Below, in pieces: positions 13,728 through 58,370 of a DNA stretch of 64,000 bases. Origin of the DNA: Thermolongibacillus altinsuensis (GTDB taxonomy: Bacteria > Bacillota > Bacilli > Bacillales > Anoxybacillaceae); assembly GCF_004341205.1 (NCBI RefSeq), contig NZ_SLUL01000012.1, positions 1 to 64,000 of the forward strand, read 5' to 3'. How positions within the stretch are numbered: position 1 is the first letter of the stretch; each line of letters opens with the position of its first letter. A model generated the notes under the pieces. It was not told the DNA's origin, searched no databases, and saw only the letters and a list, made by a program, of their open reading frames with translations. Position numbers and translations under genes: made by a program.

Positions 13728-13794
13728 GCTTTTCTGCTGTTCGGGTTCATACAGTCAGCTAAGCAAAACGCTTAGCTGACTTCAGCAGGAAAGC
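13728..13794. other. nested hairpin downstream of patB
   Basis: An outer 12-bp stem GCTTTTCTGCTG (13728-13739) / CAGCAGGAAAGC (13783-13794, one G-T pair) encloses an 11-bp hairpin GTCAGCTAAGC-AAAAC-GCTTAGCTGAC (13754-13780). No T-run follows, so it is not a standard intrinsic terminator. It may stabilise the patB mRNA 3' end or be an unrelated structured element. Confidence 0.6.
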
Positions 13795-21024: not shown

Positions 21025-21140
21025 CATCATTCACCTCTTTTTTCTTAATTTTCTGATAAATATAACAAAAAAACAATGATGATGCAATACGTTTTTTTAA
21101 CCTCCATCTTTCATAATCAATGTAATTTATTATTTATTGA

Positions 21141-21360
21141 TATAGATTCAAGTTGAGTTTCCGACATACCTCATCATGAATAGAAGACCGCTTTTCTGCC
21201 ATAGGCGGCAAGATTTCTCTTGCCGCCCCAGCATGCTAAAAGCATGCCGATTCCGAACGTAAAACGCATGACAGACAAATTCATTTGTCTGATGGCGTTT
21301 TCGTTCGGAGAAGTGGCAGAAAAGCTTGTTTATGTCGAAAAATTAAGCTTATCATATATA
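21141..21360. repeat. 220-bp structured repeat, copy 1
   Basis: Folds end to end. P0 is CGACATA/TATGTCG (21162-21168/21331-21337). P1 is a perfect 12 bp, GCTTTTCTGCCA/TGGCAGAAAAGC (21190-21201/21314-21325). P2 is GGCGGCAAGA-TTTC-TCTTGCCGCC (21204-21227). P3 is GCATGCT-AAA-AGCATGC (21231-21247). P4 is TCCGAACG[T]AAAACGC/GCGTTTTCGTTCGGA, capped by P5 CAGACAAA-TTCA-TTTGTCTG (21272-21291). A second copy lies at 58149-58368. It fills most of the gap 21025-21365 between yuiA and the ndh terminator. No ORF in it is convincing. Confidence 0.85.
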
Positions 21361-21365
21361 ATCAC

Positions 21366-21400
21366 ACAAAAAAGAGCAAAGGCACAAACGCCTTTGCTCT
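21366..21400 (-). terminator. ndh terminator
   Basis: AGAGCAAAGGC-ACAAAC-GCCTTTGCTCT followed on the minus strand by TTTTTTGTGT. Confidence 0.9.
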
Positions 21401-21407
21401 AAAAGAG

Positions 21408-58148: not shown

Positions 58149-58368
58149 TATAGATTCAAGTTGAATTTCCGATATATCTCATCGTGAATGGAAGAGTGCT
58201 TTTCTGCCATAGGCGGCAAGGTTTTTCTTGCCGCCCCGGCATGCTTCTAGCATGCCGATCCCGAACGTAAAACGCATGGCAGACAAATTCATTTGTCTGA
58301 TGGCGTTTTCGTTCGGGGAAGTGGCAGAAAAGCTTGTTCATGTCGAAAAATGAAGCTTATCATATATA
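58149..58368. repeat. 220-bp structured repeat, copy 2
   Basis: Colinear with 21141-21360 and the same length, differing at roughly two dozen positions, mostly in loops and flanks. Stems are kept: P1 GCTTTTCTGCCA/TGGCAGAAAAGC identical; P2 ends in G-T in place of A-T; P3 gains a G-C pair (CGGCATGC/GCATGCCG) where copy 1 has A-C; the outer pair of P4 is C-G instead of T-A (full compensation). It occupies the gap between yusF and the yusG terminator. Confidence 0.85.
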
Positions 58369-58370
58369 AA

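Follow-up and report, generated by a model that had tools for sequence, protein, structure and literature searches.

Bacterial MITEs are usually described as insertion sequences reduced to their ends around an arbitrary filler, and in the REP/RAYT and IS200/IS605 systems hairpins act as DNA, without DDE-type inverted-repeat ends and without target duplication. Among the described elements, the nearest in its way of movement to the one considered here is RUP of Streptococcus pneumoniae, a 107-bp MITE for which mobilization in trans by the IS630-Spn1 transposase has been proposed, and which the available text of its descriptions gives as present in 108 copies, intergenic, tightly folded and targeted to TA (PMC2229807, PMC3049150). 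Several further systems share parts of this anatomy, as far as the accessible portions of the reports go: the Correia/NEMIS elements of Neisseria, of about 107 and 155 bp, have 24-bp inverted repeats with terminal TA and folded transcripts (PMC2229807); bcr1–bcr3 of the Bacillus cereus group are MITE-like folded intergenic repeats in Bacillales, with bcr1 averaging 39 copies per strain (PMC6542083, PMC2267715, PMC3446304); and BOX of S. pneumoniae is a modular folded MITE, some copies of which are transcribed (PMC3049150).

The locus compared with these systems lies between yuiA and ndh in Thermolongibacillus altinsuensis, within what is here called the window, i.e., the whole stretch of 64,000 nucleotides that was analyzed (contig NZ_SLUL01000012.1, positions 1 to 64,000). 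The preliminary description held that the nested pairing of the element exceeds chance, and the comparison with shuffles bears this out: positions 21120–21380 are predicted to fold at −94.7 kcal/mol against a mean of −51.5 (sd 4.3) for 200 dinucleotide shuffles, none of which is as good (0/200; z about −10), and the minus strand of the 21141–21360 copy likewise folds (z −9.25). The outer stem, the 12-bp stem and the three arms are all recovered in the predicted fold where that description had placed them (Table 1): the two ends pair imperfectly as an outer stem, the closing stem consists of 12 perfect pairs and one G-U pair, and arm 3 is capped by an 8-bp hairpin (21272–21291) with the loop TTCA. 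Closing stem and three hairpins together form a core of about 136 nt—a four-way junction, to judge from the fold. The second copy claimed for the window is present, and the view that the element codes for nothing plausible stands, the sole overlapping ORF of at least 60 aa being a 60-aa frame (21220–21402) that is not gene-like. So does the statement that no Rfam family has such a plan: none reaches its gathering score over any core in the window and the 28 other loci scanned, and a permissive Rfam search of the window copy returned sub-threshold matches only. The limits first assigned, 21141–21360, hold to within two bases, most other copies starting with a TA two bases earlier. The window copy measures 222 bp, with TA at its right end (21359–21360) and GA in place of TA at its left (21139–21140), whereas TA precedes TATAGATTC in 31 of 40 copies and is the final dinucleotide in 38 of the 40. 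An intrinsic-terminator-like hairpin on the minus strand (21373–21400), adjoining the 3′ end of the ndh-like ORF, is separate from the element.

Table 1. Positions in the window of the element, its parts and its second copy
Feature	Position	Strand	Basis
Whole element, putative IS630-type MITE copy	21139–21360	+	Ends from comparison of 40 copies
Left terminal inverted repeat, TATAGATTCAAGTTGAGTTTCCGACATA	21141–21168	+	Inner 21 bases at 71 genome places; IS630-like ends in relatives
Right terminal inverted repeat, imperfect complement of left	21330–21360	−	40 copies compared; right end of L383 similar, not identical
Core, four-way-junction module common to other transposon shells	21190–21325	+	Matches in other genera; model R1
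Closing stem, 5′ side	21190–21202	+	Fold; outer 11 pairs of commonest type in at least 45/49 cores
Closing stem, 3′ side	21313–21325	+	Fold; 49-core alignment
Arm 1, 10-bp hairpin	21204–21227	+	Fold; two-sided changes at 7/10 pairs in 49 cores (helices 2–3)
Arm 2, 7-bp hairpin	21231–21247	+	Fold; two-sided changes at 2/7 pairs in 49 cores (helix 4)
Arm 3, 15-bp arm with one bulge	21252–21309	+	Fold; two-sided changes at 9/23 pairs in 49 cores (helices 5–8)
Second copy in window (core 58198–58333)	58149–58369	+	blastn identity 91–92%; R1 model match

The element is abundant in its own genome. A first search found at least 40 long copies of 91–100% identity, the inner 21 bases of the left end occur at 71 places with at most 3 mismatches (0 for the reversed control), and the covariance model R1 matches 73 distinct places (84 rows minus 11 on the opposite strand, with the best 150 of 1485 candidates scored), the weakest of which may be chance. 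Copy numbers throughout are lower bounds, referring to the 40, 19, 150 or 8 best-scored candidates per genome, depending on the search. In the window itself, the minus strand at 13728–13794 gives a weak R1 match (E 3e-4), possibly an unrelated hairpin. The consensus ends of the 40 copies, TATATAGATTCAAGTTGAGTTTCCGACATA and, on the opposite side, TATATATGATAAGCTTAATTTTCCGACATA, are imperfect inverted repeats of about 30 bp. A short element with no gene-like ORF, terminal inverted repeats and some 70 dispersed copies has the anatomy of a MITE, and by that anatomy we read the window copy as probably of IS630 type. As to the target site, the IS630-type shell shows TA only and its TATATA ends make a duplication hard to prove; duplications do appear in the sister shells described below, and the element is absent at the window locus in eight relatives. 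In the nearest genus the yuiA–ndh gap measures 53–65 bp without the element in 8 of 9 loci, the ninth (L377) showing one flank only, and these spacers differ too much from that of T. altinsuensis to give a clean pre-insertion site. The earlier suggestion of a non-autonomous mobile element thus agrees with the dispersed copies, the repeats, the sister-shell duplications and the relatives that lack the element at this locus. Its proposed movement as single-stranded DNA in the IS200/IS605 manner, in contrast, finds no support: that class lacks inverted repeats and duplications, whereas repeats are found here and duplications in the sister shells, and the ends resemble those of IS630 and, in relatives, IS4 elements, which are DDE-type users of inverted repeats.

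Candidate helper elements with such ends occur in relatives and in the own genome. Two genomes (G010 and G034) hold elements with these ends on both sides, similar ends occur in a third (G040), and the element of G010 has two ORFs matching IS630 transposase. In T. altinsuensis itself there is an IS630-like copy, L383, with overlapping ORFs, the first of which is 68% identical to its G010 counterpart in a protein search; its ends, TATATAAGTCAAACTTGATT and TATATAAATCCAACTTAAGCTTTCGACATA, resemble without equaling those of the MITE, and closer ends are found in G010. When sought by the 5′-end pattern, an autonomous element was not among the 16 own-genome loci whose left end had no full core listed: these are internally deleted copies or have no right end within reach, with one (L216) running off its contig and another (L219) also carrying a near-full copy. 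Five own-genome loci (L212, L213, L215, L220, L221) show differing internal deletions that keep both ends; counted from the inner left end, the shortest has about 94 bp. Several own-genome R1 matches have cores of only 122–125 nt, at different places.

The core reaches well beyond this shell. The element matches 22 of the 41 genomes of the family searched, the own genome included, and outside that genome near-complete matches span only positions 50–189 of the query, i.e., the core, at 68–75% identity. The exception is a fragment in G007 that covers positions 1–82 at 91%, by which the IS630 shell is also present there. Hosts among the matches listed are Anoxybacillus, Geobacillus and Parageobacillus, apart from one match in Nitrosomonadales (L096), which had no similarity to four reference cores and was treated as chance. 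In the relatives the core is mostly flanked by CAGGCGTGTTGATTAACC and an imperfect complement of CAGGCGTGTTGATTAACC, and this IS4-type shell bears a 9-bp duplication that is exact in 50 of 75 distinct two-ended copies and in 55 of them agrees in 8 or more of its 9 bases, against a mean of 0.74 with shuffled partners. In G016, similar ends enclose an element of about 1.25 kb whose two ORFs, in different frames, match IS4 transposase, and in G170, which belongs to another family, cores were found at eight or more places, most of them, by eye, with IS4-shell ends. The relatives group used below numbers 121 cores, mostly though not wholly in the IS4 shell. A core copy in Anoxybacillus tepidamans PS2 (L146, 3098–3236) has, by eye, no recognizable transposon ends. 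The single core match on a plasmid (CP128455.1, 33445–33594, from Geobacillus stearothermophilus, typed conjugative) offers a possible route between genera, and the plasmid search gave no match for the third-shell type described next. A phage or viral origin was considered and dropped, no match being found in phages or in viral contigs, the viral scans using exact patterns.

A wider type with the same architecture and a different sequence appears as a weak R1 match (5.9e-7) in a genome of another family, G316. In a DNA search with this type, 14 of the 101 genomes of that family match, and the model R2 matches 69 of 397 Bacillales genomes, in 22 of 135 genera and often with several copies per genome; it finds nothing in the own genome and matched only two genomes of the own family, with hits in G024 and G007 at 1.4e-8 and 1.3e-7. 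Across 23 R2 loci, one per genome, the same fold recurs, made up of a closing stem, a pair of short hairpins and a long one, in 139–146 nt at −77 to −110 kcal/mol. Both GGCTATGTTA ends of a third shell were found at 21 of the 66 R2-type cores examined, with a total length of mostly 194–198 bp, which leaves hardly anything in this element besides its ends and the core; of these 21 two-ended copies, 14 match in 7 or all of the 8 duplication bases (0.96 when shuffled). Other R2-type cores have IS630-like TATATA ends, and several f27 and g35 loci are, by eye, without clear ends. Two reduced relatives (L288 and L299, in G467) retain just the closing stem and arm 1, in the form of a single long hairpin, and GGCTTTGTTA-like ends lie close by. 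In the genus of G316 (g69) the element occupies one place per genome, and the eight aligned loci share a flank leading to sufC: the element stands upstream of sufC at L276–L283, with gene calls for two of them (555–1340 at L276, 1821–2606 at L278); a shortened element is kept upstream of sufC in two further species (L284, L285), and by eye the flanks of the g69 locus resemble a fossil inverted repeat of about 45 bp. The R2 type may be homologous to the window type, on the thin grounds of cross-matches and a common plan; convergence is possible, because such models reward hairpins.

The pairing of the core is preserved across considerable sequence change. In a structure-blind alignment of 49 cores (out of 55 rows comprising the window copy, 14 own and 40 relatives, with L120, L124, L136, L166, L168 and L170 left out), two-sided changes occur at 20 of 53 pairs, and the 173 two-sided cells compare with 58.6 in shuffles, none of 500 reaching 173, and with 5–36 when the structure is slid along the alignment. 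At one syntenic locus in four genomes, 12 pairs (16 cells) changed on both sides; one-sided change that left a standard pair accounts for 2 cells, and 6 cells are unpaired. The closing stem and arms 1–2 of 26 diverse cores (of 74) show two-sided changes at 20 of 34 pairs, with 56 cells against 9.9 in shuffles. In all these counts the rows are related and thus do not represent independent events. The preliminary description had named an alignment devoid of covariation as speaking against it; covariation proved strong in all three alignments, though it can also arise from template switching, a mutational process.

Arm 3 has a history of its own. At two syntenic f27 loci (locB and locD) its identity in divergent pairs is 0.58–0.68, against 0.83–0.94 for the flanks, and it is still paired; because it diverges beyond its flanks and yet folds, it can evidently change rapidly in sequence without losing its pairing. 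Arm 3 is not generally faster than the flanks at locC or in g69, and the arm columns of locA were excluded from this comparison. At the syntenic loci L316/L348/L370 and L317/L321/L324/L341 arm 3 has in some species been swapped for a largely different, well-paired stem, with the apex, closing stem and arms 1–2 changing less. Capture of foreign sequence was tried as a source of such arms and rejected: a mutual comparison of 20 f27 arms yielded 9 matches, most of which joined orthologues or fell in the apex.

What holds these folds in place may be sought in RNA or in DNA. Were the core a structured RNA, i.e., a non-coding RNA family or UTR device spread by MITEs with selection acting on the transcript, the strong covariation, the conservation of sequence in the arms and the syntenic copies upstream of sufC in one genus would be expected, as would one f27 locus at which the element lies, by eye, between a stop codon and a terminator-like hairpin. 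The G-U pairs speak on both sides. On the + strand they number 29/982 in the own genome, 39/2153 in R2, 9/441 in g69 and 125/2480 in the relatives group, and on the other strand 22/977, 28/2154, 16/447 and 55/2421, after thinning, which kept 18 of the 34 own cores, 45 of the 121 in the relatives group, all 8 of g69 and 35 of the 62 of R2 (leaving aside 4 g140 cores, six own copies whose cores duplicate another, and a small number of weak or short rows). The + strand excess of the relatives group (125 vs 55) is as RNA would show and tells against a DNA-only view, but the bias in g69 is reversed (9 vs 16), both in rows that are related and not independent, and a G-U share of 1–5% in the cores falls well short of the 27/233 (11.6%) counted for six control RNAs, taken from the window and from retrieved loci. 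One-sided changes in the core stems of the 40 own copies stand at 20 G-T to 15 A-C (with 8 other and 2 Watson–Crick), which also weighs against selection on a transcript; two-sided ones comprise 11 Watson–Crick and 1 A-C. Nor is there an orientation bias relative to genes: the neighbors of 33 own copies are 10 forward, 11 reverse, 8 divergent and 2 convergent, with one side unknown in 2, for which reason an oriented UTR element was rejected; a promoter function was rejected too, the window copy having one promoter-like site against 1.6 expected from shuffles. An RNA function appears unlikely. The loops add to the case for DNA: of the 188 informative loops of the relatives group, 164 have a reverse-complement counterpart, and complement and reverse counterparts exist for 8 each. 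The own loops, TTTT (26) and AAAA (8) in arm 1 and TAGAA (30) and TTCTA (7) in arm 2, occur in all four combinations and cannot distinguish inversion from complement; the R2 arm-1 loops (of 33, 6 recur as reverse complement, 13 as complement and 4 as reverse) lend no support to inversion, and the R2 arm-2 loops are a weak test (5, 2 and 0, of 13). Template switching between inverted-repeat arms is described, in the available text of the sources, as homogenizing the arms and inverting the spacers (PMC8604942) and as creating or repairing stems (PMC8794818). The rarity of G-U pairs, together with loops in both orientations in the relatives group, thus points to hairpins that form in DNA rather than as RNA, with template switching acting on them, as far as sequence comparison can tell.

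Given such a process, the long inverted repeats might simply correct themselves by template switching with no selection at all, the core being an inert filler of successful MITEs. Loop inversion, two-sided changes with few intermediates, and an arm 3 that at two of the syntenic loci compared outpaces its flanks yet stays paired are what this would predict, and template switching is, in the cited portions, a described cause of arm homogenization and spacer inversion (PMC8604942, PMC8794818). It leaves unexplained, however, why a three-arm plan and a length of 136–146 nt should persist across genera and in several shells. Among the 40 own copies, moreover, the difference from consensus per site is 0.016 in the stems against 0.043 and 0.031 in the shells (core loops 0.088); correction may contribute to this, and template switching alone could lower stem change, but on balance a purely mutational origin seems still more doubtful than an RNA. 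The least probable of the explanations weighed is that of an insulator, a two-way barrier to transcription or replication that would shield transposon ends and neighboring genes from read-through. The very stable folds on both strands suit it, and so does the placement of the own copies, none of which interrupts an ORF (0/33 loci examined of the 40 copies, with a simple ORF finder); against it, 9 of 120 copies in the relatives group lie inside an ORF call (as do 1/23 in R2 and 1/8 in g69), and no intrinsic-terminator pattern exists inside the window element, the one found being the separate hairpin beside ndh, so that a terminator function was likewise rejected.

The explanation that fits best, to which we assign a probability of roughly 0.55, is that the element is an IS630-type miniature transposon whose cargo is a portable DNA four-way-junction module, kept since its carriers spread or persist better. 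From the pattern of mutation, the hairpins of the module would form in DNA, as a cruciform or in single strands at replication, and polymerase template switching within them would rewrite the stems to perfect complementarity and invert the loops. Most likely, some 140 bp folded into a compact junction would bring the terminal repeats of an element of about 220 bp together, and a transposase could then pair the ends without sharply bending short, stiff DNA. Such an aid would suit any inverted-repeat transposase, and the IS630-type, IS4-type and third shells might therefore all carry the module; its recurrence suggests that the folded shape itself is passed on and kept across shells. A pure hinge is hard to square with arms 1 and 2 and the arm-3 apex, which within clades keep sequence and not pairing alone, and the conserved sequence of arms 1–2 hints at an additional partner, such as a protein. 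Copies with internal deletions abound in the own genome and several cores there measure 122–125 nt, so that movement may do without an intact core; against a role in movement there are also some copies, at the g69 sufC locus and at f27 and g35 loci, which are old and syntenic, with the fold kept where movement seems long past. A second possibility, less probable, is that of a distinct and ancient module, selfish or useful to the host, which has moved as a passenger between unrelated families (IS630, IS4 and a third with 8-bp duplications) across Bacillales, its fold kept by template switching plus selection and its shape acting independently of the transposase.

If shape matters, these elements would allow the contribution of a transposon's body to be tested directly and separately from that of its ends, and would be a natural case of a DNA four-way junction that chromosomes have preserved for long periods. 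They also indicate that DNA hairpins can give rise to covariation, which is usually taken to prove a structured RNA, two-sided changes being abundant here, G-U pairs rare and, in one group, the loops inverted. The wider-type model matches 69 of the 397 sampled Bacillales genomes, and no copy scanned reaches the Rfam threshold. The literature searched, which included few subscription papers, holds no published description of this element, nor of one folded body common to MITEs of different IS families. Among the known systems, REP/RAYT and IS200/IS605 are set apart by the ends, both of which here resemble those of DDE-type IS elements. Correia/NEMIS differ in host and in body, Correia having an IHF site and a proposed role for RNase III; bcr1–bcr3, which are distinguished here by description only, are associated with a TTTAT motif and occur in the B. 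cereus group alone, according to the portions of the reports available; and BOX is built of modules boxA, B and C over 67–637 bp, its accessible account describing no constant four-way junction (PMC3049150). Even RUP, the closest in its movement, is not described in the available text as having a three-arm core or as sharing its body with other IS shells; the present core, by contrast, is found again in shells that duplicate 9 bp or 8 bp of target. Unlike in the usual picture of a MITE, it is in this case the filler that is the conserved part and the ends that change.
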